From Acidobacteriaceae bacterium (GTDB lineage Bacteria; Acidobacteriota; Terriglobia; Terriglobales; Acidobacteriaceae), in assembly GCA_003168355.1 (NCBI GenBank), contig PMSQ01000063.1, positions 1 through 64,000 of the forward strand: 64,000 nt of DNA, in the 5' to 3' direction. This document shows positions 8,486-59,288 of this stretch, piece by piece. Below the pieces are notes generated by a model. That model saw only the letters and a list, made by a program, of their open reading frames with translations. It was not told the origin of the DNA and made no database searches. The position numbers were made by a program, and so were the translations under genes. The stretch's first letter is position 1; the number at the start of each line of letters is the position of its first letter.

Positions 8486-8489
8486 ACTG

Positions 8490-8562
8490 CAGTGGTCAGT
8501 AATCAGTGGCCAGTGACCAGTATCCAACGAACTGGCCACTGCCCACTGGTCACTGATCACTG
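8490..8562. repeat. imperfect palindrome of CAGTGGTCAGT-type units
   Basis: Arms 8490-8521 and 8531-8562 (32 bases each) are inverted copies matching at about 27 of 32 positions around a nine-base loop. Each arm itself contains tandem CAGT-GGTCAGT-like units. It starts five bases after the kinase stop codon, so it could act as a transcription end or RNA-stabilising hairpin. A similar dispersed element elsewhere in the genome is likely but not testable here. Confidence 0.55.
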
Positions 8563-8738
8563 CCTTCAGGCAACTCGCGGCTGTCTCCGAGGTTCCAATG
8601 AGGTTGGTGGGCGTTTGCTCTTCCCGCGCATTCCTGATACATAAATGGATGGCAATTCACGCCTTCACAAAGGTGTTCCAGCCCGGCTTGTAACGGCCGG
8701 GCAGTGCGGAAGCACGTTCACAGGAGATAAAGCGAAGA

Positions 8739-10109
8739 ATGCGGACAAGGTTTGCCTGGGTTGCGGGAATTTTGGTCTTGGTTTCAATCGGCGTCCTGGT
8801 GGCTTGCAGTAGCAAGTACACATCTCACTTCGATGGTCTGGTGGTGGTGTCCACCCAAGAAGAGGGCGTGATGGAGACCTTCAGCCTCGATCTGGGCAAC
8901 GGCGACATGACGCAGATCAACAACGAGAACGGTCCTCCCACACCCGGAATTGCGACCTCTGTTGTCATTGATCCGGCGGGCGCATTCGCGTATGTGGCGA
9001 CCACCGTGACTTGTACTCCAACCCTGGCTGCGAACACTTCTCTCACCGGCGCGGTACAGGGCGCCATTTTGGTATACCCGATCAACTCCGACGGCAAACT
9101 GGGCGCGGCGGGTAATCCGACGTACTTGCCCGGGAATTCCGCATATCCCAGCACTTTTCCAACCTGTGGCCTCGACGATTCGACAAATCCCAACCCCGGC
9201 AGTGCGCCAGCCGCTATCGCCATGGACTCGGCTGGGAAATACCTTTTTGTGGCCGCAGCTCTGGAGGCCGCTACCTATACCACCAACCTCAACACGACGC
9301 CGATCCCGACCGTGGCGACTCTCAACTCGGTGGGCGTCGTGGTCTACGCCATCGGCAGCGCTGGCAGCCTGACGGAAGTCGCAGGTTCGCCTTTTGCGCT
9401 TCCCTCCCAGCCGGGTGGCCAGCCCCCTCAACCATCGGCGCTCGCCGCCACTCCAACGGTGTACCCGGTCCTGGATGCTCCATGTACCGCCCATACGCCT
9501 CCCACAACGGAAGATCTTTATGTGACGGATTTTGAGAATGATGTGATTTTGAATTACTCGGTCTCGTCCACTGGCAGTCTGACCCTGGTTAATACTGGAG
9601 GATCGACCCAAGGGGTTCCCACCGGCACTCGGCCCAACGGGGTTGCGGTCGACCCTTGTAACCGGTTTGTTTATGTGGGAAACCAGGAGTCGAACAGCGT
9701 TAGCGCCTACACGATTTGCAGTGTTGTTTCTTTGCCACAATGCCCCGTCGGAGACTACAGTCTGCTGCCAGTTGCGGGTTCGCCCTTCAACTCCGGCACC
9801 GGTGCGGGACCTTTGACGGTGGATGCGTACGCCAATTTCTTGTATGTGCTGGCCACCGGTAGCGACGCGGTGTACTCGTACAAGATCAGCTCCACCAATG
9901 GCGCGTTGACGCCCATGACACCCGCGTTCGTTGCCACCGGCCAATTTCCGACATCGATTGCGATTCGCAGCGACGATAGCTTTATGTTTGTGGTCAACTT
10001 CAATTCCGCGAGTCTTTCGGAGTATGGCGTCACGCCGGGGGATGGAGCTTTGACGGTGCAGCCGACGGTCACTGCCTTTCCCACTCCTTGGGGAGTGGCA
10101 GTGAAGTAG
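8739..10109 (+). CDS. beta-propeller lipoprotein (YVTN/lactonase-like repeats)
   Basis: 456 residues. The N-terminus is a lipoprotein signal with a lipobox-like VLVAC (Cys22) after a hydrophobic run. The rest is a chain of beta-propeller blades recognised by repeats such as DPAGAFAYVATT, DSAGKYLFVAAAL, VDPCNRFVYVGNQ, VDAYANFLYVLAT and RSDDSFMFVVNF, each followed by an AYxI/VYxI-type strand, as in 6-phosphogluconolactonase-like and YVTN surface proteins. These are common in acidobacterial genomes; enzymatic activity should not be assumed. A weak hairpin (GCCCGGC...GCCGGGC near 8684-8705) lies in the 5' leader. The gene is monocistronic. Confidence 0.75.
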   Translation: MRTRFAWVAGILVLVSIGVLVACSSKYTSHFDGLVVVSTQEEGVMETFSLDLGNGDMTQINNENGPPTPGIATSVVIDPAGAFAYVATTVTCTPTLAANTSLTGAVQGAILVYPINSDGKLGAAGNPTYLPGNSAYPSTFPTCGLDDSTNPNPGSAPAAIAMDSAGKYLFVAAALEAATYTTNLNTTPIPTVATLNSVGVVVYAIGSAGSLTEVAGSPFALPSQPGGQPPQPSALAATPTVYPVLDAPCTAHTPPTTEDLYVTDFENDVILNYSVSSTGSLTLVNTGGSTQGVPTGTRPNGVAVDPCNRFVYVGNQESNSVSAYTICSVVSLPQCPVGDYSLLPVAGSPFNSGTGAGPLTVDAYANFLYVLATGSDAVYSYKISSTNGALTPMTPAFVATGQFPTSIAIRSDDSFMFVVNFNSASLSEYGVTPGDGALTVQPTVTAFPTPWGVAVK

Positions 10110-10206
10110 CCCTGGTCAGCGCGAAGGCATCGCCCCTGAGTCGTTCATTCGGACAAGAATCGATTCCGTCAAGCGATTTTTCCTTCAATTTGCTTCGCGA
10201 GGCTGG

Positions 10207-12534
10207 TTATGTCGGAATTTTCAGAATCAAGTAGGCGCCCACCAGAGCGAAAATCAGATCCGGCGACCAGGCCGCAAGGGCTGGCGGCAACTGGCTGAGG
10301 TCTCCCATCGCCTCGAACAGCCGCGACACCACGGTGTAAACCACTGCGATGCCCACCGCGACCGCAATTCCCGTGATGGCTCCTTTTTTGGCCGCTGACA
10401 TGGAAAATGGAACGGCGAGCACAGCCATGATCAACGTGATCAGCGGAAAGGAAAGCTTCTTATTTAGTTGCACCCGCAGCCGCACTACATCGAACCCGCT
10501 CTGCTGCAGATCGCGGATATAGCGACGCAGTTCCTCGTAGTTCATCTCGGAATACTGTTTTACTTCCTTCTTGAAATAGGACGGCGCTTCGCTGATTTCG
10601 GGGAAAGTGGAGACGTCGAAGGTGCGGTAGCTGGCGATGGCGGCGCCGTGCAGAGACCGCTGCCAGCCCTGTTCGAAGATCCATCGGTCCATGCTCTCGG
10701 ACCAGTGAGTGCGCTCGGCATGGATGCGCTGGGTGATGTCGAAGCTGACGGGGTCGATCTGGAAGATGGTGAGGTTGGCAAACTGATCGCGGTCGGCGTC
10801 GAAAAACTGGTAATAGTAGATGTCATTGTGCTGGCCGAAAATCCAGCGGCGGTCCGGGCGTAGATAAGTCTGCGGGGGCTTGCCTTTGATCTGGTTGTGC
10901 AGCGCCTCCTGGCGTTTGTTGGTATGAGGAAGATAGAACTGGTCGGCAAAGAACAGTCCCGCCGCCAGCACAGCGGCCGCTGCCAATACGGGTGTGACGA
11001 TGCGGTAGATGCTGGTTCCGGTCGCCTTAATGGCGGTAATCTCATTGGAACGGTTCATCAGCCCGAACGTGATCAGCACCGCGAGCAGCATGATCAGGGG
11101 CGCAACGCTGTAGAGAAGGTACGGAGCCACGTTGAGCAGATATTCCGCGACCACGATGAAAGGCGTCTGATTGCGCAGTATGTCGCTCAGCAGTTCGAAC
11201 AGAGTAAACACCAGCAGCAGGACAAGGAACGCCGACAGGATCATCCCCAGATAGACGAAGAAATCGCGCAGTACGTAGTCATCGAGCAGCGTGGGAAAGC
11301 TGGCGCTGAAAACGCGCCGACGGGTGGAGGCGCGCTCAAAGGCACTGTCTCTGCGCCTTTGCCTGCGATCCTGTGCGGGGCCGTTCGCCGGAAGCTGGTC
11401 GCGCTTCCACGCCAGCCTGATTGCCGACAGCGAAAGAGGACGCCGCTCCGCTTGCCACAACAGGAACAACGCCGCGGCGAAGAATACAAGGTTGGCCAGC
11501 CAGGCTCCGAACGCTGGGCTGACCCTGCCTTGCTTGGCCAGCGAGACTCCCACCAGAGAAATAAAGTAATAGACGAAGACCAAAGCGATGGTGAGTACGA
11601 AACCGCCGGACTTGCCGCTCTTTTTCGACGAGAGTCCCAGAGGGATTCCGACCATGGCCAGCACCAGACACGCCGTGGGCAAGGCGAAGCGGTTGTGAAA
11701 TTCGATGAGGTATACCCGCGCCGATACGACATCGGCACTGGCAGCGTGATCGTGCAGCGCCCTCGTATCGATGGCTTTGACCGGAACCTGTTCGTCTGCT
11801 TTGTTCTCCGACGAAGGCAAATCGAGCGGGATGTCGGTTTGCTGGAAGGTTGAAATCTGATAGTGGTCGGCCTGTGTCAGATCGGTTTCGTGGGTGGAAC
11901 CATCGACTAAGTGTAAATGCAGGCGATCCTGGCCTTCGGGGACGAGGATACCTTCGTGGGCCAGCGTGATGCTCGGGTTGGCGGGATCGGAGATGTCTGC
12001 GAGAAACACGCCCTTCCACACCGCGGCACCCTGGGCTGTATGTACGTCCTGCACATAGAGCACGGTCTTGGGGAACCCTTCATAGAACACTCGAGGCTGC
12101 ACTTCAAACGACGCTTGCGAGGTTTTGAGTTGATCCTCAAGGCGTCCCAGCGACGCGAGCGACCATGGCGCCAGGTACAAGCCGTTGATCAAAGCCAGGA
12201 ACCAGGCGGCCACGACGAAAATGGCGAGCACGCGCCCAAAGTTCCAAACGCCCATGCCGCTGGCGCGCATAGCGGTGATTTCGCTGTCGGCAGCGAGGCG
12301 GCTCAGGCCGATGAGAATCCCCACCAGCACGCTCATGGGAATGGTGTAGGTGAGCGCGAGCGGGACTGTGTAGAAGAAGATCTCGGCAACGCTGGGCAGG
12401 GGCGCGCTGGCGCGGACCACCAGTTCCAGAATCCGTCCCAGATCGCGTGTGAACAACACAAACGTGAAGATGGCCGCGCCGATCAGGGCGTGCGACGTGA
12501 CTTCACGGAGAATGTAGCGGGTAAGAATCCGCAT
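10207..12534 (-). CDS. fused LPS-export permease LptF-LptG
   Basis: 775 residues from the ATG at 12534 (MRILTRYILREV is the typical LptF N-terminus; upstream codons in frame look non-coding). Residues 1 to about 375 form one YjgP/YjgQ permease: N-terminal helices, the SEITAMRASGMG coupling motif, a periplasmic beta-jellyroll and C-terminal helices. A basic linker (about 380-415) follows, then a second full permease starting TLLDDYVLRDFFVYLG with its own SNEITAIKATGTS coupling motif, jellyroll and terminal helices. In most Gram-negatives LptF and LptG are separate partners of the LptB ATPase that move LPS from inner membrane to the Lpt bridge. No frameshift or stop separates the halves. Confidence 0.85.
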   Translation of the reverse strand: MRILTRYILREVTSHALIGAAIFTFVLFTRDLGRILELVVRASAPLPSVAEIFFYTVPLALTYTIPMSVLVGILIGLSRLAADSEITAMRASGMGVWNFGRVLAIFVVAAWFLALINGLYLAPWSLASLGRLEDQLKTSQASFEVQPRVFYEGFPKTVLYVQDVHTAQGAAVWKGVFLADISDPANPSITLAHEGILVPEGQDRLHLHLVDGSTHETDLTQADHYQISTFQQTDIPLDLPSSENKADEQVPVKAIDTRALHDHAASADVVSARVYLIEFHNRFALPTACLVLAMVGIPLGLSSKKSGKSGGFVLTIALVFVYYFISLVGVSLAKQGRVSPAFGAWLANLVFFAAALFLLWQAERRPLSLSAIRLAWKRDQLPANGPAQDRRQRRRDSAFERASTRRRVFSASFPTLLDDYVLRDFFVYLGMILSAFLVLLLVFTLFELLSDILRNQTPFIVVAEYLLNVAPYLLYSVAPLIMLLAVLITFGLMNRSNEITAIKATGTSIYRIVTPVLAAAAVLAAGLFFADQFYLPHTNKRQEALHNQIKGKPPQTYLRPDRRWIFGQHNDIYYYQFFDADRDQFANLTIFQIDPVSFDITQRIHAERTHWSESMDRWIFEQGWQRSLHGAAIASYRTFDVSTFPEISEAPSYFKKEVKQYSEMNYEELRRYIRDLQQSGFDVVRLRVQLNKKLSFPLITLIMAVLAVPFSMSAAKKGAITGIAVAVGIAVVYTVVSRLFEAMGDLSQLPPALAAWSPDLIFALVGAYLILKIPT

Positions 12535-46430: not shown

Positions 46431-46823
46431 ATGGAAACTATGTTGTTGCGAAAAACGGAATCGGTCGAAGACCCGCATCCGGGGCAGGTTTTCGTGCGCT
46501 CACCAGCGGTGGTCTCACGCCGCATAGCCGGGGAGACTTTAATTGTTCCCGTCCGTGGCAAGGTCGGCGATCTCGCGTCGATCTACAGCTTCAACGAAAC
46601 CGGTTCTTTGATTTGGGAGTTGCTGGAAACTCCGAAGGGACGTTCGGAGTTGATCGGCGCCGTCGAGCAGGAGTACGCGGTCGGGCCAGAGCAGGCAGAG
46701 CGGGATGTGACGCAATTCTTGAACGACATGCTTTCGGTGGGATTAGTCGAGGCCTGTCCGGAAGTTGAGATGGCTGCAATGGAATCGGCGGCGCAAGGCG
46801 AAATGCAAGCGGGATCGCACTGA
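46431..46823 (+). CDS. PqqD-like peptide-recognition (RRE) protein
   Basis: 130 residues. The core VVSRRIAGETLIVPVRG, then SIYSFNETGSLIWELLETPKGRSEL, then AVEQEYAVGPEQAERDVTQFLNDMLSVGLVE is the PqqD winged-helix pattern (beta hairpin, FNETGxxIWxLL, EYxVxxxxAxxDVxxFLxxLxxxGLV). PqqD-type domains bind the leader of a ribosomal peptide and present it to a radical SAM enzyme. Its start is either ATG 46431 or 46440. The radical SAM gene follows 106 bases later on the same strand. The long C-terminal tail (about 20 residues) is extra to the family. Confidence 0.85.
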   Translation: METMLLRKTESVEDPHPGQVFVRSPAVVSRRIAGETLIVPVRGKVGDLASIYSFNETGSLIWELLETPKGRSELIGAVEQEYAVGPEQAERDVTQFLNDMLSVGLVEACPEVEMAAMESAAQGEMQAGSH

Positions 46824-46929
46824 TTGCGGGGATTCGATTTCCAAAATTCGATTTCCAAAATTTAGAGCGCGAATTTAGAGCGCGAAAATTGATCGCAGGC
46901 AGTCGGCACTTTAACGGATCAGGGAGAGT

Positions 46930-48195
46930 ATGGAACAACTGAGTTACGGAGCATTCAGCGCAGGCCTGCACCAACGCCAGTCCGGTCAACGTGTGCCCAT
47001 GCAGGTCTCGATCGAAGTGACGCGGCGCTGTCCGCTGGAATGCCAGCACTGCTACAACAATCTCCCCATGGGCGACCAGGACGCCCGCAGCCGTGAAATG
47101 ACCACGGAAGAGCACTTCCGCATGCTCGACGAACTGGTCGAGATGGGCTGCTTCTGGCTCCTCTACACCGGCGGAGAAATCTTCGCTCGCAAAGATTTTC
47201 TCGAGATCTACACCTACGCCAAGAAAAAAGGTTTCCTGATCACCCTCTTTACCAATGGCACCCTCATCACGGAAAAGGTCGCGGACTATCTGATGGAGTG
47301 GCCGCCCTTTGCCATCGAGATTACGTTGTACGGTCGCACCCGCGAAACGTACGAAGCCCTAACCCAAATCCCAGGTTCGTACGATCGATGCTTGCGCGGA
47401 ATCAAGTTGCTGCGCGAGAGGGGATTGCCGCTGAAGTTGAAGACGGTGGCGACCAGCATTAACAAGCATGAAATCTCAGCGATGCGCCATTTTGCGGAAG
47501 AAGAGCTGGGAGTGGAGTTCATGATGGATGGGCAGATCAATCCGAGGATTGATTGCTCGCAGAGTCCGCTCGCCGTACGGCTTACGCCGGAAGAGGTTGT
47601 GGCGCTGGATATGAGCTCACCGAAGGCCGCGGTTGAGTATCGGAGCTTGGCGGAGCAAGAGCTGGCAGCCTCTTCCCGCCTATCCAAGATCGACACGGTC
47701 TACTTCTGCGGCGGTGGGATCAAGGCTTTTTCAATTAATCCCGGTGGAGAGATGAGCATTTGTGTCACATCGCAGCAAGATACGTTCGATACTCGGCAGT
47801 CCGGCCTCAAGTACGCATGGGAGCATTCCCTTCGTGAGGTGCGAGATCGCAAGCGAACGCGAGCCACGAAGTGTGTTAATTGCAGGATTCAGTCTCTGTG
47901 TGGTATGTGTCCCGCGAACGGCGAGATGGAGAACGGGGACAAAGAAAGTCCTGTTGCGTTTCTTTGTAATGTGGCTCATCTGCGGGCGGCTGTGATCGGC
48001 GCTGAGGCTCCGGCGCATGGCGAGTGCGAGTTCTGCGCGGGCGGAAGTGAGCATGAAGCGCTGTTGGAATCGGCGCGGCGCATTCGAAGCAAAGAGATTG
48101 ATGTGGACGGTTGGGTGGGGCCGCAGTCGATCCTGCCGATTCTCAATAATTCGAGTGTGTCGGCGGGCGGTTGTAGGGGCTGTGGAAGTCATTAA
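46930..48195 (+). CDS. radical SAM/SPASM peptide-modifying enzyme
   Basis: 421 residues. The radical SAM cluster motif is C34-x3-C38-x2-C41 (RRCPLECQHCY), with a SAM-binding TGGE at LLYTGGEIFA and a second motif VATSINKHEIS. The SPASM domain follows: VYFCGGGIKAFSINPGGEMSICV, then KCVNCRIQSLCGMCPANGE and FLCNVAH, supplying the auxiliary iron-sulfur ligands. The C-terminus is Cys-rich (CEFCAGG and GGCRGCGSH). Enzymes of this architecture make carbon-carbon, thioether or other crosslinks in RiPP precursors. It lies between a PqqD-like protein and a 57-residue candidate precursor. Reaction type is unknown. Confidence 0.9.
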   Translation: MEQLSYGAFSAGLHQRQSGQRVPMQVSIEVTRRCPLECQHCYNNLPMGDQDARSREMTTEEHFRMLDELVEMGCFWLLYTGGEIFARKDFLEIYTYAKKKGFLITLFTNGTLITEKVADYLMEWPPFAIEITLYGRTRETYEALTQIPGSYDRCLRGIKLLRERGLPLKLKTVATSINKHEISAMRHFAEEELGVEFMMDGQINPRIDCSQSPLAVRLTPEEVVALDMSSPKAAVEYRSLAEQELAASSRLSKIDTVYFCGGGIKAFSINPGGEMSICVTSQQDTFDTRQSGLKYAWEHSLREVRDRKRTRATKCVNCRIQSLCGMCPANGEMENGDKESPVAFLCNVAHLRAAVIGAEAPAHGECEFCAGGSEHEALLESARRIRSKEIDVDGWVGPQSILPILNNSSVSAGGCRGCGSH

Positions 48196-48271
48196 GTTGC
48201 TATGGCCCGGGATGGCATCTCCCTGCGGCCCGCGTTTTACACGCTCTGAGAGCGGAGTGACTGGAGGCTAG

Positions 48272-48445
48272 ATGGATCATGAGATATGCCAATCCGACGG
48301 CAAGAAGCCTTACACCAAGCCTGAATTGACGACGATCAGCTTGCGTCCGGAGGAGGCGGTGCTGGGCGCCTGCAAGATTTTCGGACAAAGCGGCGGCAAC
48401 AGCTCCAGTGTATGTGGTGTTTTATGCCGGATCGCCGGATCATAG
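48272..48445 (+). CDS. candidate RiPP precursor peptide
   Basis: 57 residues, too short for usual gene calls, starting at ATG 48272 with GGAGG four bases upstream and ending at TAG. The N-terminal half looks like a leader: KKPYTKPELTTISLRPEE contains Tyr14-x-x-Pro17-x-Leu19, the YxxPxL motif that recognition elements bind in lasso-peptide leaders. The C-terminal half is small and polar with three cysteines (Cys34, Cys48, Cys52; a fourth at Cys6), a GQSGGNSSS run and a C-terminal Ser57. It sits directly after the radical SAM gene and before the HprK-like kinase, the expected place for a precursor. Modification and product are inferred. Confidence 0.7.
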   Translation: MDHEICQSDGKKPYTKPELTTISLRPEEAVLGACKIFGQSGGNSSSVCGVLCRIAGS

Positions 48446-48493
48446 CGGGGAGGGCGGTAATACCGAGGATTGAGCGGGGGGGATTTGTAGGAG

Positions 48494-49432
48494 ATGCTGG
48501 CCACGCCAATGGAGGAATCGAATGCCGCAGCCCACAGCAGTGTTGGCATCGGCGGAGTGTGTGTGAGGCTTTCTGGTGGAAGCGATGCTGATGTCAGGCT
48601 GATGCCTACACTTGAACCGTTCCGCATTGACGCCGCCGCGTTTGATATCGACATCCAAATCGAGTGGATTGGCAACATTCCTCAGCCCCGGGGGCGGCAG
48701 ATGTTCGACTCAGGAACCACATGGCGATTGCACGAGGCTGAAGCAGGACTTGGGTTCGACGTGAGCTCTGAAGTGCGGGGTCCAAGTCCATTTACGCGGC
48801 TGCTCATCGACAGAAGCTTCAGCAGTGCAACACTCCAGATGAATGAAGAATGTTTTGCGGGCTTTCCTCCTGCCGCACCACCCTTGAGCTATCCCCTCGA
48901 CGAACTCCTGATCATGCACCGCCTAACCCAGGAGCGCGCTATCGAACTCCACGGCGTCGGCATCGTCGGTCCGGATGGCGCAAGCAACTTGTTCGTCGGC
49001 CATTCTGGCGCGGGCAAGAGTACGACGGCGCGGTTGTGGACCTCGCTCCACAAAGTAGAGATTCTGAGCGACGACCGCATCATCGTTCGTGAAAGCCCGG
49101 GCCGCGAACTGCGCCCCGGCGACGATCCCGCGCAAATCTTCATGTACGGCACTCCGTGGCACGGCGAGGGATGTTTCGCTCTACCGCAGCGCGCGCCGCT
49201 GCAACGCATTTTCGTTCTGGAGCACGGCCACGGCAACGTGCTCACGCGCCTCACCCGCAGCCAGATGGTCGCAGAACTATTCGCGCGCAGCTTTGTGCCA
49301 TTTCACCGGCACGAGTATGTGGATTCCGCGTTGAGTTTTCTGGAGCGGGTTGCCGATTCCGTCCCGTGCTATCGCTATTCTTTCGAGCCCGATGAACGCG
49401 CCGTGGAGAGGGTTCTCAGTCTCCGTGAATGA
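48494..49432 (+). CDS. HprK-like kinase of peptide-modification clusters
   Basis: 312 residues. The C-terminal half is an HPr kinase/phosphorylase-type P-loop domain: VGHSGAGKSTTARLW (Walker A), ILSDDRIIVRE, YGTPWHGEGCF. The N-terminal half has a beta-strand region (EAGLGFDVSSEVRGPSPFTR, FAGFPPAAPPLSYPLDELLI) seen in HprK-related proteins of RiPP loci rather than in true HprK. In paeninodin-type lasso clusters such kinases phosphorylate the C-terminal serine of the precursor; here the precursor ends in Ser57. The ATG has no clear ribosome-binding site at proper distance (AGGAG abuts it), so the start is uncertain. Its stop overlaps the next gene's start by eight bases. Confidence 0.8.
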   Translation: MLATPMEESNAAAHSSVGIGGVCVRLSGGSDADVRLMPTLEPFRIDAAAFDIDIQIEWIGNIPQPRGRQMFDSGTTWRLHEAEAGLGFDVSSEVRGPSPFTRLLIDRSFSSATLQMNEECFAGFPPAAPPLSYPLDELLIMHRLTQERAIELHGVGIVGPDGASNLFVGHSGAGKSTTARLWTSLHKVEILSDDRIIVRESPGRELRPGDDPAQIFMYGTPWHGEGCFALPQRAPLQRIFVLEHGHGNVLTRLTRSQMVAELFARSFVPFHRHEYVDSALSFLERVADSVPCYRYSFEPDERAVERVLSLRE

Positions 49433-52400
49433 TCTCGTGACCACTGATCTCCCAATCATTGACCGTCCGCAGTCGAAGCAGTTTGAATCTTTCGTTCTTG
49501 AATGCCTGAAGGACGGGCTGCGGGTTCGGTTTCAAGCGCGCGGAGCCAGCATGTCTCCCGCGATTCGCGATGGCGAAATGGTTTATGTAAGACCGGCCTC
49601 CGAGGTGCACCTGCGCCGGGGAGACATTGTTTTGGTGAAGGGCGATTACGGCTTCAGGCTGCATCGGCTGGTGAAAGCCGACGCAGCTGCGGATATCTTC
49701 ATCACACGCGGCGACTGCGGCCTGCAAGACGATCCGCCGGTGCGTGGCGAACAGATTCTAGGCGTCGCCGTGGCCAAAGAAGTGCGGCTGGGACGAACAA
49801 GCGTGCGGACAAAACTAAGAGGTGTCGGCGGGATACTGTTGCGCGGCGCGGCGCGAGGACAATCGGCCGCCGGCAAGCTCTTGCGCAGATCAGGACTGCG
49901 GCGCTCGCCACAAGGCGCAGCTAGCCGAAGCGGCGTTCTTGGTGCGCTAGGCCTGATTCTCGTTCTCCTCGCCGCAACTTCTTCCCGCGCGCAGGTCGCG
50001 GTCGATACTAACTCCAGCACGAATACCACCGCAGATCTGACGGGCGCAGGCACGCGGACGCTCACCTTTAATCACACCACTTCGAACACGGCGAATCGCG
50101 CACTGCTCGTGGGCGTTTCCATGAACATCGCAAACAGCGCCGCGACTGCCGTAACCGGCGTTACTTACAACGGCACGGCCCTGACGTTCGTAGGCGCGCA
50201 CAACGATGCCGGAAACACGCGCCGGGTGGAAATGTGGTATCTGCTCAATCCCGCGTCCGGAACCAACCTGCCAATTATTGTTTCCGTCGACGTTCCCACA
50301 GCTGCGACCGTTGGCGTAACGGCCGGAGCGACTGTGTTTACCGATGTCGATCAGACCGTGCCGCTTAGTTCGTTCGTCTCCGCAAATGGTGCGACCGCGA
50401 CTAACTCTCAACTGGATGTCCCGAGCGTCGTCAATGGGATGGTATTCGACACGCTTGCGGTGGGACTGGGGGCGATCACGGTAAATGGTCCCCAGGTTTC
50501 GCAGTGGAACGTAGCCTCAGGGGGCACGACCTCAAATGCAACTCAGGATATAGTGGGCACAGCCAGCAGCAGAAGCGGTGCGCCCAGTGTGCCCGTCTCG
50601 GAAAGTTTCAACGGAACCCTCAACCTCACGGCCGCTGTGCCCAAGGCGGTCTCATTCAATCTCACCTCCGTTACGCCTACCACTGTCGCGCTCGCTCTCA
50701 CCAAGGCCGCGAATGCCTTTGGCGGCACCACCGTGTATACGGGAACAATCACCGGCGGAGGCGGCAATGCCTACGTCGGGGACACGGTCGTTGTAACCGG
50801 TTTCACCACCGCTGCCGACAACGGGACATTCACGTGCACCGCATCCTCGACCACCACAATCACGCTCAACAACAACGCCGGAGTTGCGCAAACGCACGCC
50901 GGAACGGCCACCGCGACCACCAGCACCGTTTACACGGGAACGATCACCGGTGGTGCCGGCAATGCATTTGCCGGCGATACCGTCGTCGTGACCGGGTTCA
51001 CTAACGCCACCAATAATGGAACGTTCACGGCCACTGCATCTTCGGCGACCACGCTCACGCTTAACAACAAAGCCTCGGTTGCTGAAACGGATCCTGGAAC
51101 GGCCACGGTGGCGACCGCGACCAGTACCAGTACCGTCTACACAGGAACGATCACCGGCGGCACCGGCAATGGCTTCGCCGGTGACAGCTTTGTTGTGGCG
51201 GGCTTCACCAATGCCGGGAACAACGGAACATTCACGTGTACCGCCTCCACTGCAACTACCCTGACGTGCAGCAACGCGGCGGGAGTTGCGGAAACGAACA
51301 CGGGAACGGCGACCACTAACGCCACGTTCAACTGGTCGCTCGGCGCGGTGTCGATCAATCCCACGGCGGCCGATATCGGAGTAACAACCAGCGTAGGCAG
51401 CGCGATTTTTCTGGGATCGAATACCATCTACACCATCACGATCTCCAATAGTGGAACTTCGGCGGCGAATGCCGTTGCGCTCTCCGACGCTCTGGCTTCC
51501 GGAATGACGCTAGTCTCGGTGACCCCGAGCGTGGGCAGTTGCGTCACTACTGCCAACCCGGTTACCTGCACGATCGGCACGCTGGCGAGCGGTGGAACGG
51601 CCACGGTCGTAGTGGTTGAAACCGCGACTGCCGCAGGGGCGTATTCAAATACGGCGACCGTCTCTGACTCCGGCACGCCTCCCGATCCGAATACGGGCAA
51701 CAACACTTACACCGCGGTTGCCACGGTGCAGTCGCCCGCTTGCGCCACTGTTGCGCAGGCAGTGCCCAATAATAGTGTGTCGGGTACGGTGAACACCTAC
51801 TATCCCGGAACGGCGAGCGTAGCCGCGGGAGTAACTTCGATTCCCGTGGGTGCCGCGACCGGGACGGGAACTGCCATCGCCGCCGGAAATCTCTTGCTGG
51901 TAATCCAGATGCAGGATGCCAGCATCAGTGATTCGAATACCGTCGCCTATGGCAACGGCAGCACGGGCCAGGGCTTTACCACGCTGAACAGTGCGGGAGA
52001 CTACGAGTTCGTTACCGCGCAATCGGCCGTAGGCACGGGCGGCGGTACGGTCACGATTTCAGGCGCAGGGGCAAGCGGGGGAACGGTCTTTGCGTATCGC
52101 GCATCCGCCGCTTCAGCAACCGCGGGACAGAGCACCTATCAAGTGATCGTGGTGCCGCAGTACACCACGGCTACTTTCAATGCCACCACGCCGCCAACGG
52201 CGCCCGCCTGGAATGGTTCCACCGGCGGAGTTCTCGTCCTGGATACTTCGAGCACTCTTACTTTGAACGGCGCCACCGTTTCGGTGAGCGGACAAGGCTT
52301 CCGCGGCGGCGCAGGAATGCAACTCGATGGCGGTGTGGGAGGCAGCAACGCAGACTACCTTCACGCCTCTCCCGCAACCTATACCGGCGTCGTGGAAAAC

Positions 52401-55400
52401 GGAGTGGATGCATCCAAGGGAGAAGGAATTGCGGGCACGCCGTTCTGGGTTGAATCGGGTGGCACCTATGTGCTCGGCAACAGCAGCTATCCCAGCGGTA
52501 CCGCGGGAACGGATGGCAGCAGCGCGCGCGGCGCACCGGGCAACGCCGGAGCCGGTGGCACGGATGGCGATCCCACAAATAACGACCAGAATGCGGGCGG
52601 TGGTGGAGGCGGCAACGGAGGCTCTGGAGGTTTCGGCGGAGACTCGTGGAACACAAACTTCAGCGATGGCGGCGAAGGCGGCGCGGCATTTCCGGCGACC
52701 ATCAACCGCATAGCCCTGGGGGGTGGAGGCGGCGCAGGCACGCGCAACAATTCAGACGGTGACACTCAAGCCAGCGGCGGCGCGACCGGTGGCGGCATCA
52801 TCATCATTCGCACCAACGCGCTCAGTGGTACCGCGACCCTCACGGCGAACGGAGTTTCGGCCTACAACGGTACGGCCAATGATGCCGGCGGCGGCGGCGG
52901 AGCCGGCGGCACCATCGTTGTTCTCTCGGCCAACGGGGGCGAAAGCGGCCTCACCTTGCAGGCCAACGGCGGTAACGGCGGTAACGCCTGGGCCACGGAG
53001 CCCTATACTCTCGGGAATCGCCACGGGCCCGGTGGCGGTGGTGGTGGCGGCGTTGTTCTGGTTTCTGGAACTCCTGCCAGCATCAGCGAAACCGGCGGGA
53101 CGAACGGCCTTACAGAAAATCCCGGAGTATCTTACGGATCGACGCCCGGCGCCACCGGCACCAGCGCGACCAACGAATCAATCACGCAAACTTCCGGCAC
53201 GCAGTCCGGCGCGCAATGCACTCCCGACATGACGCTCGGTAAGAGCCATGTAGGAAATTTTGTGCGCGGCTCCACGGCGGCCTACACCATTCCAGTTGAA
53301 AATTTAAGTCCCTACGGATCGACGAATGCCACAGTAACGATCAACGATACCTTGCCCGTCGGCCTGACTCCTACCAGCGCCAGCGGCACCGGATGGGCCT
53401 GCTCGATCATCTCGCAAACCGTGAGCTGCACCGATTCCACCGTGTTGGCAGCGAACAGCTTTTATCCATCGATCACCATCAACGCGAACGTAGCGCAGAC
53501 GGCACCCTCCACGGAGACCAATATCGCCACCGTCAGCGGCGGCGGCGAGCTCAACCTCGCGAACGACACTGCTACCGACGTAGCCACCGTCGTCTCCAGC
53601 GCCGACCTGAGTGTGACCAACGCCGCATCGCCCGATCCTGTAGCCGCCGGCGCCAACCTAACTTTCACGCAGCTCGTCACCAATAGCGGCCCCAGTGCCG
53701 CCGATAACGCCACGTTCGTGGAAGCCGTTCCGGCAAATACGACTTTCGTTTCCCTATCGGCTCCTGCGGGATGGACTTGCTCTTATCCCTCAGGCGGTAC
53801 CACAGGTAACGTCGTCTGCACCGACCTGAACATGGCGGGAGGCACCGCGGCCACCTTCTCCATGATTGTGAATGTGAATTCCGGGACCGCCAACGGCACG
53901 GTGATTACCGGTACTGCTGCGGTGAGTTCGTCGGTGAGCGATCCCAATTCGACTAACAATATTGCCTCCGCGTCGACCGTGGTTGGAACGACCGCCGGAG
54001 CGGAGATGACGGTCACGAACTCGGCCTCGCCCAATCCTGTGATTGCCGGCAACAACATTACCTATACGCAGACTGCCACCAATGTTGGCAGCGGCACAGC
54101 CAATGCTCCAACACTCAGCGATACTACTCCGCCCAACACGACGTTCGTATCGATCTCCACGCCGCCCGGCACTACGTGCACCCCGACGTTGGCCGTGGGT
54201 GCTACCGGTACAATAACCTGCACTGGCGCGTCCGCTCCCGCCGGCACGAGTGGGACGGTAGTATTCGTCGTGAAAGTCACCGCGGGAACTGCCAGCGGAA
54301 CGGTCATCACCGATACAGTAACGGTAAACGCGACCAATCAGGCGTTCGGGGCCAATTCCGCGACGGCTGCCGACGTAGTGGCCACGGCAACGCAATCCGA
54401 TCTCGCTCTGAGCACGGCCGCCACGCCGCTCACTGTGTATGCCGGCAATGACATCACCTATACGCAGACCGTCACAAACAACGGCCCCGCGGCTGCCACG
54501 ACCGCCCAGTTAGTAGAGGCGACTCCAGCCAACACCACCTTTGCTTCCGTCTCTGCTCCAGTTGGTTGGACCTGCACCACGCCCGCAGTGGGCGGAGTCG
54601 GCAATGTGACCTGCTCTGACCCGAGCCTGGCCTCGGGTGCGTCGGCTGATATTATCGTGGTCGTCAATCTTGCGTCCACGGTCATCGCTTCATCCATCAC
54701 CGCGACTTCTACGGTCTCTTCAACCACCACCGATCCCAACTCCGCCAACAACAGCACGACCATCGTTACGCCTGTCGTCACCGTCTGCGACCTCGCCGTG
54801 ACGAACAGCGGCACTCCAAGTCCAGTTACGGTGGGCAACAATATCACCTACACGCAGGTCGTCACCAACAGCGGTCCGGGCAATTGCTCCACTGCCAGCT
54901 TCACCGAAGCGTTTCCAGCCAACACCACATTCGTTTCGCTCACTCCTGTGCCTGCGGGTTGGACTTGTACAACTACGGGATCCATCAGCTGCAGCGATCC
55001 CAGCTTCGCTCCGGGAACGACGAGCACGTTCCCTGTGATCGTAAAGGTCACCGGGGGCACACTCATCACCGACACTGTAACCGTTGCCACGACCACCCAT
55101 GACACCAACACCGCCAACAATACCGCCACCGTCACCATTGGTGTCGCAACAGCCACGCAAGCTGATCTGAGTATCACCAACTCAGCCAGCCCGAACCCCG
55201 TGACTGCGGGCAACAACATCACCTACACGCAAACTGTAACCAACGGCGGACCAGCCGCCGCGACCACGGTCACCCTGACCGAAACGCTTCCCACAAACAC
55301 CGCGTTCGTGTCCCTTTCCGGAGCCGGGTGGACTTGCACCTCCGCCGCACCTTACACCTGCACCATTGCCAGCCTCGCAGCCAACGCCACCGCAACCTTC

Positions 55401-58400
55401 ACTTTTGTGGTGACGGTAAACGCGACGGCAACTTCAGGTTCCACCATCACAGATACAGCTTCTGTCGCCAGCAGCGTCACCGGCGATCCTAATCCGGCAA
55501 ACAACACCGCCTCCGTCGGCGTGCTGGTGGCGGACTCCGCCGATCTGTCGGTTACAAACGTTGCCAGCCCGGTTCCGGTGCAGGCGACCAACAATATCAC
55601 GTACACCCAAGTTGTAACGAACGCGGGGCCGAGCACTGCCACTACTGCAAGTCTTACCGAAAGTACGCCGGCGAATACGACGTTCGCGTCCATCGTCGCC
55701 GCCGCTGGATGGTCGTGCACCACGCCGATTGCCGGCAATGCCGGGACCATCACATGCACCAACCCGAGCTTCGCCGCCGGAACCGCCAGCTTCACGGTCG
55801 CCGTGAAAGTCAATGCGTTAACTCCGGCCGGGACGGCAATCAACAGTACCGCAACTGTGAGTTCCACAACCGCCGATCCCAACTCCGCCAACAATACCGC
55901 GACCGCCGCAGACGTGGTCGCGACCGCTACGCAATCCGATCTCATCACCACCAACACCGCCGCGCCGTCTTCCGTTGCGGCAGGCAGCAACGTTACCTAT
56001 ACACAGAGCATCACCAACAACGGCCCCGCGGCGGCAACTTCGGTCAGTTTTTCTCAAACTACACCGCCCAATACAAACTTCCAGTCCATCACGCCGCCGG
56101 CAGGCTGGACGTGTACTCCCCTTACAGTGGGCACGGCGGGCACCATCACTTGTACCGATGCCACTCTGGCTCTTAATGCTACGGCGGCCTTCACCCTGGT
56201 TCTTCAGGTGAATGCGGGTACGGCTTCCGGAACAAATATTGCGGAGACCGACACGGCAACCGCAAGCAACATCGTTCCAAGCCTCACCAGCAACAGTGCG
56301 ACCGCTATGGTTGTTGTCGCGAACAGCGGCGCTGCCAGCCTGGCTATTGTGAAAACAGCCACGCCAAGTCCAACAGTATCCGACGGCGATACCCTGACTT
56401 ACAACCTCGCGGTGACGAACAATGGTCCGGCGAACGCGAACAACGTAACAGTCACGGATGTATTGCCGTCCGATGTGACCTGGCTGCAGGAAACTACAAC
56501 CGTGGGCACATGCTCCGAAGCAGGTGGCACTGTCACCTGCCTTCTGGGAACAATGGCGAACGGCGCCACTGCCACGGTCACCATCCTCACCCTTGCGGGA
56601 GCACCCGGGACAGCGACGAATACGGCCACCGTGAGTGCGGCTGTGCCGGCTACGGGCGGCAGCTCGACTCAAGTGGAAACCATCACGGCCGCGACGAAGA
56701 TCCGGCTGCAGTTTTTCGCCGCTCAGCAGGGCAAAGATAAGACCGGTTCAAACCGGGTCGTGCTCTTCTGGAAGACGGGAGGGGAAGCGCATAACCTCGG
56801 ATTCAACGTTTACCGTGAACAGAACGGCGAGCGCGTCCAGCTGAATCCTTCGCTGATCGCGGGTTCGGCTCTACTGATGCACGGAACAGCGCCGAAGCAC
56901 GCCGCCAAGACGTACTCATGGATTGATTCGTCCGTGAGCGCTGGCCGCGGCTCCTACTGGTTGGAGGATGTGGACACCAACGGCACGCGTACCCAGCACG
57001 GGCCGGTGTCGGCAGAAGCTGCCGCGAGTTCGTCATCCGCGAGCGAAGCGGTTCCAGCTGCGGCGGCACTGATGTTGAACCAACTGAACCAGGCGCAACC
57101 TGCCGCAGCTTCCAGCGAGGCAAGCCATCCGGTTGAAAATGTTTTACGGACGGTGCGGCCCGCACTTACGCAGTACCAGAAGCAGTTTGAACTGGCGGCG
57201 CATCCCGCCGTGAAGATCTTAGTAAAGCACGAAGGCTGGTACCAGGTGACGCAACCCGACCTGGTCGAGGCTGGATTGGATCCGAATGTGGACCCGGCTT
57301 TGCTCCACCTTTACGCCGAGGCCGTCGAACAGCCGATGGAAATCACCGGCACATCCGCTGGGTCCGGAGGCTTTGGGCCTCAGGCTGCAATCAATTTCTA
57401 CGGCACCGGAATCGACACGCCGTATTCCGGTACCCGAGTCTACTGGCTCGCCGTGGGCGAAAATCAGGGCGCACGAATTCAGCAACTGCCGCCGTCTACC
57501 GGATCGAACCAGCCTCCGGCGAGCTTCCCCTTCACAGTAGAACTCACGCCCCATACAACCTACTTCTCCGCGCTGATCACTTCGAACGGCAACAATTTTT
57601 TCGGATCGATCATTTCCTCCACGCCCATCAATGAAATACTGCAGGCGTCCCACATCGACAAGAGCGCCGCGGAGCCGGCGCAGTTGGAAGTGATTCTGCA
57701 AGGGGTCATCCTTGCCATTCCACATGATGTGGCCATTGCGCTGAACGGTACGACCTTGGGCAATGTCACCTTTACGGGGCAGGACAAAGGAAGACTCACC
57801 GTGACCCTCCCGCCTAGCCTGTTACAGGATGGCGATAATACCGTCACGCTCACTTCCCAGGACGGAGAATACGACCTCAGCCTGGTGCAGTCGATCCGCA
57901 TTGCTTATCCCCACTCCTATGTGGCGGATGCTGATAGCTTGTTTTTCACCGGGCGTCCTGGAGATCAACTGAAAGTCACTGGCTTTGCCTCTGCTCCAGT
58001 GGTGGTACTGGATATCACGAACCCGGATCAACCGGTGGCGCTCACTCCTCAAATCGCCACCGATACTACCTCTAATCCAAACCAGTACGGACTCACAGTG
58101 CAGGTACCCTGGTCGACCACCGCGGCATCGGCCCCCGCTCGCCACACGTTACTCGCTTTGGCGAATGACAAGGTCGCTTCAGCCTTGGGCATTCGGCAGA
58201 ATCACCCGTCGCATTGGCACAGCCCTCAACCCGGCAGCGAGATCGTCATGGTGTCGCCGGGCGCATTCGCGGAGGCTCTCACGCCGGTGATTCAAGCGCA
58301 TGAGAAAGAAGGCAAATCGGCTGCTCTGGTACCGGTCGATGAGCTGTACGACGAATTTAATTTTGGCCAGCACAGCCCGTCCGCGATCCGTGACTTTTTA

Positions 58401-59288
58401 CAAACCGCGGTAAAGGTCTGGCATACCGCGCCGCGCTACCTGTTGCTCAATGGCCGGGCATCCCTTGACCCGCGCAACTACCTCGGCTTCGGCCATCTGG
58501 ATTTTGTTCCGACGAAGATCGTGCCCACAAGCATGCTGATGACGGCCTCCGACGACTGGTTCTCGGACTTCAACGACACTGGTATGCCAACCATCGCAAC
58601 CGGGCGTCTCCCCGTGAGCACCGCAGCCGAAGCCCAACTGGTGGCCGGCAAAATTGCCACTTACGAAGGCCAATCCACAAACGGTCCCTGGACCTCGCAG
58701 GCGCTTATGGTCGCCGACATAAACGATACCGAAAACTTTACGAAAGACAGCCAGCTCGTGCAGGCGCAGCTGCCTTCTACGATGCAGGTAACCGATGCTT
58801 TCGCCAGCACGATGACCATAGCCCAAGCCCAGCAGGCAATCCTTTCCGCCATCAACTCCGGGCAGTTATTAGTAAACTATGCGGGACATGGCTCCGAAGA
58901 CGAATGGTCCGGAAATGATCTTTTCGACAACACCGCCGCGAATTCGCTGACCAACGGCTCTTCCTTGCCGGTGTTCCTGATCATGGATTGCCTGAATGGT
59001 TTCTTCCAGGACGTTTACGATGAGCCTCTGGCAGTCACCCTCATGCTCGCCCCGAATGGAGGCGCGGTCGCAGTCTTGGCTTCGAGCGGCCTGAATCAGG
59101 CAGCGCCGCAGACGCTTCTCGACAAGCTGGTTGTGCAGAGCGCAATAAATTCGCCGCAGCTGGCCTTGGGAGATGCCGTCCTTAAAGCAAAATCGGGCAT
59201 CACCGATCTCGGTGTCCGCAAAACCTACAATCTGCTGGGCGATCCCGCCATGCAGATCAAACCTCCGGCTCCAACTCCAGCGCACTAG
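49425..59288 (+). CDS. giant surface protein: ER-type signal peptidase, DUF11 repeats, C25 peptidase
   Basis: 3287 residues from GTG 49425. Residues 20-130 form an S24/S26 signal peptidase of the ER/SipW type: GASMSP with Ser42, RLHRLV with His80 and TRGDCGLQDDPP with Asp97 (possible Asp102/103), i.e. a Ser-His-Asp rather than Ser-Lys site. A hydrophobic segment (169-190, ending SSRAQ) follows. Then come three tandem 65-69-residue units (435-632), one DUF11 repeat, a Gly-rich stretch (about 1000-1215), nine more DUF11 repeats (1267-2422) and a C25 (gingipain-like) peptidase with His3155 (NYAGHGS) and Cys3189 (IMDCLNGF). No type IX sorting domain is at the C-terminus. TTG/CTG starts near 49880 leave room for two separate genes, but the reading frame is continuous. 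Confidence 0.82.
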   Translation: MNDLVTTDLPIIDRPQSKQFESFVLECLKDGLRVRFQARGASMSPAIRDGEMVYVRPASEVHLRRGDIVLVKGDYGFRLHRLVKADAAADIFITRGDCGLQDDPPVRGEQILGVAVAKEVRLGRTSVRTKLRGVGGILLRGAARGQSAAGKLLRRSGLRRSPQGAASRSGVLGALGLILVLLAATSSRAQVAVDTNSSTNTTADLTGAGTRTLTFNHTTSNTANRALLVGVSMNIANSAATAVTGVTYNGTALTFVGAHNDAGNTRRVEMWYLLNPASGTNLPIIVSVDVPTAATVGVTAGATVFTDVDQTVPLSSFVSANGATATNSQLDVPSVVNGMVFDTLAVGLGAITVNGPQVSQWNVASGGTTSNATQDIVGTASSRSGAPSVPVSESFNGTLNLTAAVPKAVSFNLTSVTPTTVALALTKAANAFGGTTVYTGTITGGGGNAYVGDTVVVTGFTTAADNGTFTCTASSTTTITLNNNAGVAQTHAGTATATTSTVYTGTITGGAGNAFAGDTVVVTGFTNATNNGTFTATASSATTLTLNNKASVAETDPGTATVATATSTSTVYTGTITGGTGNGFAGDSFVVAGFTNAGNNGTFTCTASTATTLTCSNAAGVAETNTGTATTNATFNWSLGAVSINPTAADIGVTTSVGSAIFLGSNTIYTITISNSGTSAANAVALSDALASGMTLVSVTPSVGSCVTTANPVTCTIGTLASGGTATVVVVETATAAGAYSNTATVSDSGTPPDPNTGNNTYTAVATVQSPACATVAQAVPNNSVSGTVNTYYPGTASVAAGVTSIPVGAATGTGTAIAAGNLLLVIQMQDASISDSNTVAYGNGSTGQGFTTLNSAGDYEFVTAQSAVGTGGGTVTISGAGASGGTVFAYRASAASATAGQSTYQVIVVPQYTTATFNATTPPTAPAWNGSTGGVLVLDTSSTLTLNGATVSVSGQGFRGGAGMQLDGGVGGSNADYLHASPATYTGVVENGVDASKGEGIAGTPFWVESGGTYVLGNSSYPSGTAGTDGSSARGAPGNAGAGGTDGDPTNNDQNAGGGGGGNGGSGGFGGDSWNTNFSDGGEGGAAFPATINRIALGGGGGAGTRNNSDGDTQASGGATGGGIIIIRTNALSGTATLTANGVSAYNGTANDAGGGGGAGGTIVVLSANGGESGLTLQANGGNGGNAWATEPYTLGNRHGPGGGGGGGVVLVSGTPASISETGGTNGLTENPGVSYGSTPGATGTSATNESITQTSGTQSGAQCTPDMTLGKSHVGNFVRGSTAAYTIPVENLSPYGSTNATVTINDTLPVGLTPTSASGTGWACSIISQTVSCTDSTVLAANSFYPSITINANVAQTAPSTETNIATVSGGGELNLANDTATDVATVVSSADLSVTNAASPDPVAAGANLTFTQLVTNSGPSAADNATFVEAVPANTTFVSLSAPAGWTCSYPSGGTTGNVVCTDLNMAGGTAATFSMIVNVNSGTANGTVITGTAAVSSSVSDPNSTNNIASASTVVGTTAGAEMTVTNSASPNPVIAGNNITYTQTATNVGSGTANAPTLSDTTPPNTTFVSISTPPGTTCTPTLAVGATGTITCTGASAPAGTSGTVVFVVKVTAGTASGTVITDTVTVNATNQAFGANSATAADVVATATQSDLALSTAATPLTVYAGNDITYTQTVTNNGPAAATTAQLVEATPANTTFASVSAPVGWTCTTPAVGGVGNVTCSDPSLASGASADIIVVVNLASTVIASSITATSTVSSTTTDPNSANNSTTIVTPVVTVCDLAVTNSGTPSPVTVGNNITYTQVVTNSGPGNCSTASFTEAFPANTTFVSLTPVPAGWTCTTTGSISCSDPSFAPGTTSTFPVIVKVTGGTLITDTVTVATTTHDTNTANNTATVTIGVATATQADLSITNSASPNPVTAGNNITYTQTVTNGGPAAATTVTLTETLPTNTAFVSLSGAGWTCTSAAPYTCTIASLAANATATFTFVVTVNATATSGSTITDTASVASSVTGDPNPANNTASVGVLVADSADLSVTNVASPVPVQATNNITYTQVVTNAGPSTATTASLTESTPANTTFASIVAAAGWSCTTPIAGNAGTITCTNPSFAAGTASFTVAVKVNALTPAGTAINSTATVSSTTADPNSANNTATAADVVATATQSDLITTNTAAPSSVAAGSNVTYTQSITNNGPAAATSVSFSQTTPPNTNFQSITPPAGWTCTPLTVGTAGTITCTDATLALNATAAFTLVLQVNAGTASGTNIAETDTATASNIVPSLTSNSATAMVVVANSGAASLAIVKTATPSPTVSDGDTLTYNLAVTNNGPANANNVTVTDVLPSDVTWLQETTTVGTCSEAGGTVTCLLGTMANGATATVTILTLAGAPGTATNTATVSAAVPATGGSSTQVETITAATKIRLQFFAAQQGKDKTGSNRVVLFWKTGGEAHNLGFNVYREQNGERVQLNPSLIAGSALLMHGTAPKHAAKTYSWIDSSVSAGRGSYWLEDVDTNGTRTQHGPVSAEAAASSSSASEAVPAAAALMLNQLNQAQPAAASSEASHPVENVLRTVRPALTQYQKQFELAAHPAVKILVKHEGWYQVTQPDLVEAGLDPNVDPALLHLYAEAVEQPMEITGTSAGSGGFGPQAAINFYGTGIDTPYSGTRVYWLAVGENQGARIQQLPPSTGSNQPPASFPFTVELTPHTTYFSALITSNGNNFFGSIISSTPINEILQASHIDKSAAEPAQLEVILQGVILAIPHDVAIALNGTTLGNVTFTGQDKGRLTVTLPPSLLQDGDNTVTLTSQDGEYDLSLVQSIRIAYPHSYVADADSLFFTGRPGDQLKVTGFASAPVVVLDITNPDQPVALTPQIATDTTSNPNQYGLTVQVPWSTTAASAPARHTLLALANDKVASALGIRQNHPSHWHSPQPGSEIVMVSPGAFAEALTPVIQAHEKEGKSAALVPVDELYDEFNFGQHSPSAIRDFLQTAVKVWHTAPRYLLLNGRASLDPRNYLGFGHLDFVPTKIVPTSMLMTASDDWFSDFNDTGMPTIATGRLPVSTAAEAQLVAGKIATYEGQSTNGPWTSQALMVADINDTENFTKDSQLVQAQLPSTMQVTDAFASTMTIAQAQQAILSAINSGQLLVNYAGHGSEDEWSGNDLFDNTAANSLTNGSSLPVFLIMDCLNGFFQDVYDEPLAVTLMLAPNGGAVAVLASSGLNQAAPQTLLDKLVVQSAINSPQLALGDAVLKAKSGITDLGVRKTYNLLGDPAMQIKPPAPTPAH
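50727..51320 (+). repeat. three tandem 65-69-codon repeats inside the giant gene
   Basis: Each unit begins STVYTGTITGG (or TTVYTGTITGG), continues NAxxGDTVVVTGFT, NNGTFT, TTLTLNN and ends with an AGVAET-like block. Unit starts are near 50727, 50922 and 51129. Recent internal duplication is likely because the units keep about two-thirds identity. Confidence 0.8.
53223..56690 (+). repeat. nine tandem DUF11-type repeats inside the giant gene
   Basis: Units begin near 53227, 53604, 54000, 54399, 54787, 55162, 55540, 55937 and 56332 with ADLSVTN-like strands, followed by N-x-I-T-Y-T-Q-x-V-T-N-x-G-P, ANTTFVS, GWTC and C-x-x-PSF/L. The period is about 375-400 bases. Another related unit sits earlier at about 51340-51718. 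The Cys pair (GWxC...C) in each unit could form an intradomain disulfide. Confidence 0.85.

Follow-up and report, generated by a model that had tools for sequence, protein, structure and literature searches.

Linear polyphosphorylated peptides (LPP) are RiPPs whose described pathway comprises a RiPP recognition element (RRE), a kinase and an SpI peptidase (Popov et al. 2026, PMC13381572). Removal of the leader by the peptidase LppS requires the RRE, and the class was described as restricted to Bacillota (PMC13381572). Phosphorylation is also known from lasso peptides, where the kinases PadeK and ThcoK act on the C-terminal serine and where a conserved terminal serine is found in published phosphorylated precursors where a homologous kinase is present (PMC9266682). 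Two further groups, the sactipeptides/ranthipeptides and the PQQ pathway (PqqA-E), combine an RRE with a radical SAM enzyme of the SPASM type. For the described sactipeptide and ranthipeptide systems we know of neither a kinase nor an SpI peptidase.

Here, we describe a gene cassette that combines parts of all these systems. The window (the whole stretch of 64,000 nucleotides that was analysed) derives from contig C79 of a 5.3 Mb acidobacterial metagenome-assembled genome (MAG), which is Ca. Sulfotelmatobacter-like. Its nearest named relatives are MAGs of Acidobacteriaceae and Candidatus Sulfotelmatobacter, many of them of peat origin.

Results

An earlier note on this DNA had placed four genes, for a PqqD-type RRE, a radical SAM enzyme, a precursor and a kinase, next to each other on the plus strand, and all four were present at these positions. 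Together with the gene that follows, they give the following features:

46431 to 46823, + strand: PqqD-family RiPP recognition element (RRE), a discrete protein (PF05402, E 2e-16)
46930 to 48195, + strand: radical SAM/SPASM peptide maturase (PF04055, E 1.4e-20)
48272 to 48445, + strand: precursor peptide, 57 aa (55 homologous precursors; leader dN/dS)
48311 to 48328, + strand: YxxPxL RRE-binding motif of the leader (YTKPEL), from sequence; motif class as in lasso and LPP leaders (PMC13381572)
48341 to 48376, + strand: conserved leader/core boundary LRPEEAVLGACK, with predicted leader cleavage near VLG/xCK (between VLG and xCK)
48377 to 48442, + strand: hypervariable core, 22 aa, two Cys, invariant C-terminal Gly-Ser (identity comparison; last residue Ser or Thr in 55/55)
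48494 to 49432, + strand: HprK/PEPCK-fold kinase with H153, P-loop GHSGAGKS and D193-D194 (profile, model, motif as in BsfK)
49425 to 59288, + strand: giant fused protein, 3,287 aa from a likely GTG start (8-nt overlap with the kinase stop)
49425 to 49931, + strand: S24/S26 signal-peptidase-like module with S42, H80 and D97/D103 (Pfam S24; SEC11C profile match; fold; alignment)
49932 to 49994, + strand: transmembrane/signal segment, then AQVAVD (hydrophobic segment in 17/17 genus loci)
51372 to 56643, + strand: DUF11 repeats including a Gly-rich stretch, a putative surface stalk (PF01345, E down to 2.5e-79)
58245 to 59255, + strand: gingipain-type peptidase domain (C25) carrying GHG and DC motifs (PF01364, E 1e-73)

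As the earlier note had also reported, the signal-peptidase/C25 gene overlaps the stop codon of the kinase (49430-49432). Its start is likely the GTG at 49425, because several aligned homologues begin there, and this position inside the last kinase codons suggests that the two genes are translationally coupled. No exporter or transporter is encoded in the cassette, which counts as a point against the pathway proposed below.

We next set the cassette against the known systems, of which LPP and paeninodin-type lasso peptides come closest. With LPP it has in common a discrete RRE, a YxxP leader, an HprK-like kinase, the lack of a lasso cyclase and an archaeal-type SpI leader peptidase with Ser-His-Asp, whose activity in the cassette is predicted from these residues. 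LPP differ in having an NTP transferase and an MsbA-like exporter (no ORF for either lies between 46431 and 59288), a phosphate on core Ser3 and a Bacillota host, and they lack the radical SAM enzyme, the Cys-patterned core and the C25/DUF11 fusion. Of the LPP leader motif YxxPxVLxHQxIxFETxxS, the cassette leader shares YxxPx only and then continues with LRPEEAVLGxCK. Paeninodin-type lasso peptides (PadeK, ThcoK, PsmK) likewise have an RRE, a kinase and a precursor with a conserved terminal Ser, but unlike the cassette they have neither a radical SAM enzyme nor a C25 protein, and they need a B2 cysteine protease and a macrolactam cyclase (C), neither of which the cassette contains. What the sactipeptides and ranthipeptides share with it is a SPASM radical SAM enzyme plus RRE acting on a Cys-containing core; their maturases, however, belong to named families, and the cassette enzyme scores far below all of them. 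Finally, the PqqD-type RRE and SPASM radical SAM enzyme recall PQQ biosynthesis, but PqqA, PqqB and PqqC are lacking, the core is variable where PqqA has conserved Glu and Tyr, and a PQQ-like operon lies on another contig. The earlier note's view that the locus cannot be assigned to a named class therefore holds, as no named class fits all parts. Our literature search, which covered open-licence papers, so that an earlier description elsewhere is possible, returned no description of the set of radical SAM enzyme, HprK-like kinase, SpI peptidase and C25 domain. Since the module types are known and no published description of their combination was found, we call the cassette a RiPP family that newly combines known types of module and whose product is predicted from its genes.

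To see how widely the cassette recurs, we turned to other acidobacterial genomes. Orthologues of the radical SAM gene (74-87% identity) occur in 18 further genomes from this genus, with the order PqqD, radical SAM, precursor, kinase, S24 and giant protein wherever contigs allow, and the RRE gene preceded the radical SAM gene in 18/18 genus loci whose contig covers that position. As 13 of the 16 upstream flanks fall into one related group, the synteny in the genus is partly due to shared descent; because the location of the cassette is mostly the same within the genus, independence of the grouping was judged from other families. Among 396 genomes drawn from the phylum, 49 further ones had relatives at E 1e-50 or better, distributed patchily over many families, while the sister genera of the same family listed in this draw had none at E 1e-50. 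The earlier note had proposed the neighbourhoods of radical SAM homologues as a check on the grouping: genes for a small peptide and for an HprK-like protein accompanied the radical SAM gene in all 18 genus loci reaching far enough, and among 40 loci outside the genus the kinase was near it in 37 and PqqD in 36. Two of the kinase-less loci (L104 and L117) end at a contig edge; the third, L091, has neither kinase nor PqqD nearby. Eight named acidobacterial loci agree with the gene set of the cassette. As judged from these neighbourhoods, the genes form one unit.

Elsewhere in the same genome, genes of these kinds recur in a different order in a second cluster (contig C115, about 8358-11350, reverse-complemented strand): a 57-aa precursor ending in Ser, a separate S24 gene, kinase, PqqD and radical SAM. 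Its radical SAM enzyme is 31% identical to that of the window and has relatives in most genomes of the genus. On contig C49 there is a PQQ-like operon with pqqB-, pqqC-, pqqD- and pqqE-like genes, so the PqqD of the window is not the PQQ one.

The precursor gene (57 codons) matched no Pfam or NCBIfam family. By pattern search we collected 55 precursors after removal of one false match, the least certain member being that of L126, with its unusual length. The leader consensus is [KR]xYxxPx followed by LRPEEAVLGxCK or a close variant. Mean identity was 84% for the leader and 35% for the core within the genus, and 59% and 30%, respectively, over all loci. In the genus, the leader region has a dN/dS of about 0.06, with the differences at third codon positions. 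This selection, together with conservation across 55 homologues, shows that the small ORF, the candidate peptide of the earlier note, is a real gene, and on such comparative grounds it is the cassette's precursor. After CK, the cores run for 21-28 residues (with a single outlier of 41) and usually contain two Cys, the last of which stands five residues before the end in 47/50 precursors. Of the precursors, 53 end in Ser and two in Thr. Both Thr-ending precursors (L107, 7461-7625, and L091, 7327-7491) come from one genome.

The radical SAM enzyme of the window has the CX3CX2C motif and seven SPASM Cys; among 45 homologues, the former is kept in all and the latter in 43-45. Against every named NCBIfam radical SAM family, its score fell far short of the cut-off. 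Additional CxxC motifs at its C-terminal end (C366/C369 and C415/C418), which less than half of the homologues retain, are possibly a further metal site. In four related clusters, the radical SAM profile and the HprK profile match one and the same open frame (L120, 2620-4785; L122, 2677-4875; L123, 1823-3781; L127, 1891-3918; oriented coordinates), which suggests radical SAM-kinase fusions. A defence system was rejected as a reading of the locus, the PADLOC matches being only generic radical-SAM ones to viperin models.

The kinase went unrecognised by Pfam and NCBIfam apart from a sub-threshold match to AAA_33. A profile of 26 kinase sequences matched the solved HPr kinases 1jb1 and 2qmh in the P-loop region with an E of about 0.002, although generic P-loop matches to ABC transporters scored higher. 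Its AlphaFold model (pLDDT 90.9) matched PEP carboxykinases in the PDB (Z 13.8), the only proteins among the VIA-align matches listed, so that the identity as an HPr kinase rests on the sequence profile. HPr kinase and the PEP carboxykinases have a common P-loop kinase fold. Residues H153, G169, G174, K175, D193 and D194 are invariant in the alignment, and the motif is the same as that of the lasso-precursor kinase BsfK (PMC10368454). With a profile match to HPr kinases, a fold model of the HprK/PEPCK family and a complete kinase motif, the HprK-like kinase that the earlier note saw directly after the precursor is supported.

In the giant protein, the profile of the S24 module matched the ER signal peptidase subunit SEC11C (E 9e-8), and its model gave weak matches to signal peptidases and LexA-type domains. 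S42, H80 and D97 are invariant in 21 sequences and D103 is nearly so. The spacing is 38 from S to H and 23 from H to D103, compared with 39 and 25 in LppS, whose catalytic residues are Ser29-His68-Asp93 (PMC13381572). The module has no preceding N-terminal membrane segment, and an Arg-rich linker stands before the hydrophobic segment, which probably places the module in the cytoplasm and the remainder outside. Module and exported part are in one frame in 17/17 genus loci extending that far, and S24 and C25 are likewise in one frame in L139-L142 outside the genus; a separate S24 gene occurs in L092, L097 and L098, which belong to other families. The cassette's C25 gene is the sole one in its genome. 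Across 61 genomes, C25 was found in 17/19 with the cassette versus 1/42 without (Fisher 5e-12, uncorrected for relatedness), and in both cassette genomes without it the contig breaks off within the gene set. The constant order throughout the genus and the uniqueness of this C25 gene support the earlier suggestion that the signal-peptidase/C25 gene is part of the pathway. Some loci outside the genus had no detectable C25 (e.g. L106, L107, L109-L114), and C25 is therefore not essential to the core pathway. In the more distant clusters L116, L118, L124 and L125, a large C25 protein lies upstream, not downstream, of PqqD/radical SAM.

Discussion

Our best reading is that the cassette specifies a new RiPP family that is modified by a radical SAM enzyme and probably phosphorylated at the C-terminal Ser. 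We give a rough probability of 0.8 that it is an Acidobacteriota RiPP gene cassette working as follows, where the chemistry, the order of steps, the cleavage site, the topology and the biological role are inferred from the genes. The PqqD-type RRE would bind the YxxPxL leader, as its motif implies, and present the precursor. The SPASM radical SAM enzyme would then modify the core, most likely by forming thioethers that join carbon atoms to three cysteines, one at the boundary and two in the core; given an enzyme that matches no named maturase family, we put the odds of this bond type a little short of even. Phosphorylation of the invariant C-terminal Ser by the HprK-like kinase appears probable, even if core Ser3, as a target of the HprK-type kinases BsfK (PMC10368454) and LppK (PMC13381572), counts against a C-terminal site. 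With similar confidence, the archaeal/ER-type Ser-His-Asp signal-peptidase module would remove the leader next to xCK on the cytoplasmic side. More tentatively, the secreted DUF11/C25 part may serve on the outside as a dedicated partner for further processing, reception or display of the product. C25 enzymes of the PorU type are transpeptidases; by analogy, one membrane-spanning protein might couple the cytoplasmic leader peptidase to an extracellular C25 transpeptidase that anchors the peptide, once phosphorylated and crosslinked, on the surface stalk, which is speculative and quite improbable.

The DUF11/C25 part could instead belong to an independent surface adhesin or protease, separated by an internal start or by signal-peptide cleavage from an S24 module that alone serves the pathway. 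The signal-like segment with AQVAVD after the module in 17/17 loci fits such a separation, as do the separate S24 genes in L092, L097, L098 and the paralogous cluster of the same genome, whereas C25 tracks the cassette and the common frame of S24 and C25 recurs outside the genus in L139-L142; we regard independence as a substantial minority possibility, under which the RiPP reading itself would stand. It appears unlikely that the cassette is no separate family and belongs to the LPP or paeninodin group as an acidobacterial branch, its radical SAM enzyme being one more tailoring enzyme. Such a placement would account for the RRE, leader, kinase and SpI-type peptidase in common with LPP and for the C-terminal Ser in common with paeninodin, but not for the fixed Cys positions of the cores, and it is opposed by the missing NTP transferase, MsbA-type exporter, lasso cyclase and B2 protease, by a leader without the HQxIxFETxxS part and by the description of LPP as restricted to Bacillota.

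That the peptide is instead a redox-cofactor substrate, as in PQQ or mycofactocin, and not a bioactive RiPP is very improbable, even though PqqD and a SPASM radical SAM enzyme are the core of PQQ biosynthesis and mycofactocin and heme radical SAM enzymes were among the best sub-threshold matches. Precursors of cofactors have fixed core residues while the core here is hypervariable, a normal pqqB/C/D/E-like operon exists elsewhere in the genome, and such a kinase and leader peptidase are foreign to the PQQ and mycofactocin pathways; on the sub-threshold nature of the matches, the variable core and the separate operon we rejected this pathway. Contigs from MAGs and a weak Pfam match for the kinase might also raise the suspicion of chance neighbours, with a small ORF that is no gene or a kinase that is unrelated, but conservation of the cassette and selection on the precursor (dN/dS) rule this out.

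Under the reading of a separate RiPP family, the cassette defines a widespread family in the Acidobacteriota, a phylum that ranks among the most abundant in soil and among the least studied. It unites the predicted activities of radical SAM chemistry, precursor phosphorylation and a signal-peptidase-type leader protease, and because RRE, kinase and peptidase are common to LPP and lasso pathways, it allows a direct look at how shared modules come together into RiPP classes. The fixed Cys spacing and the invariant terminal Ser lead to precise predictions on modification, and the fused protease, if true, would be a new route linking peptide maturation to the cell surface.
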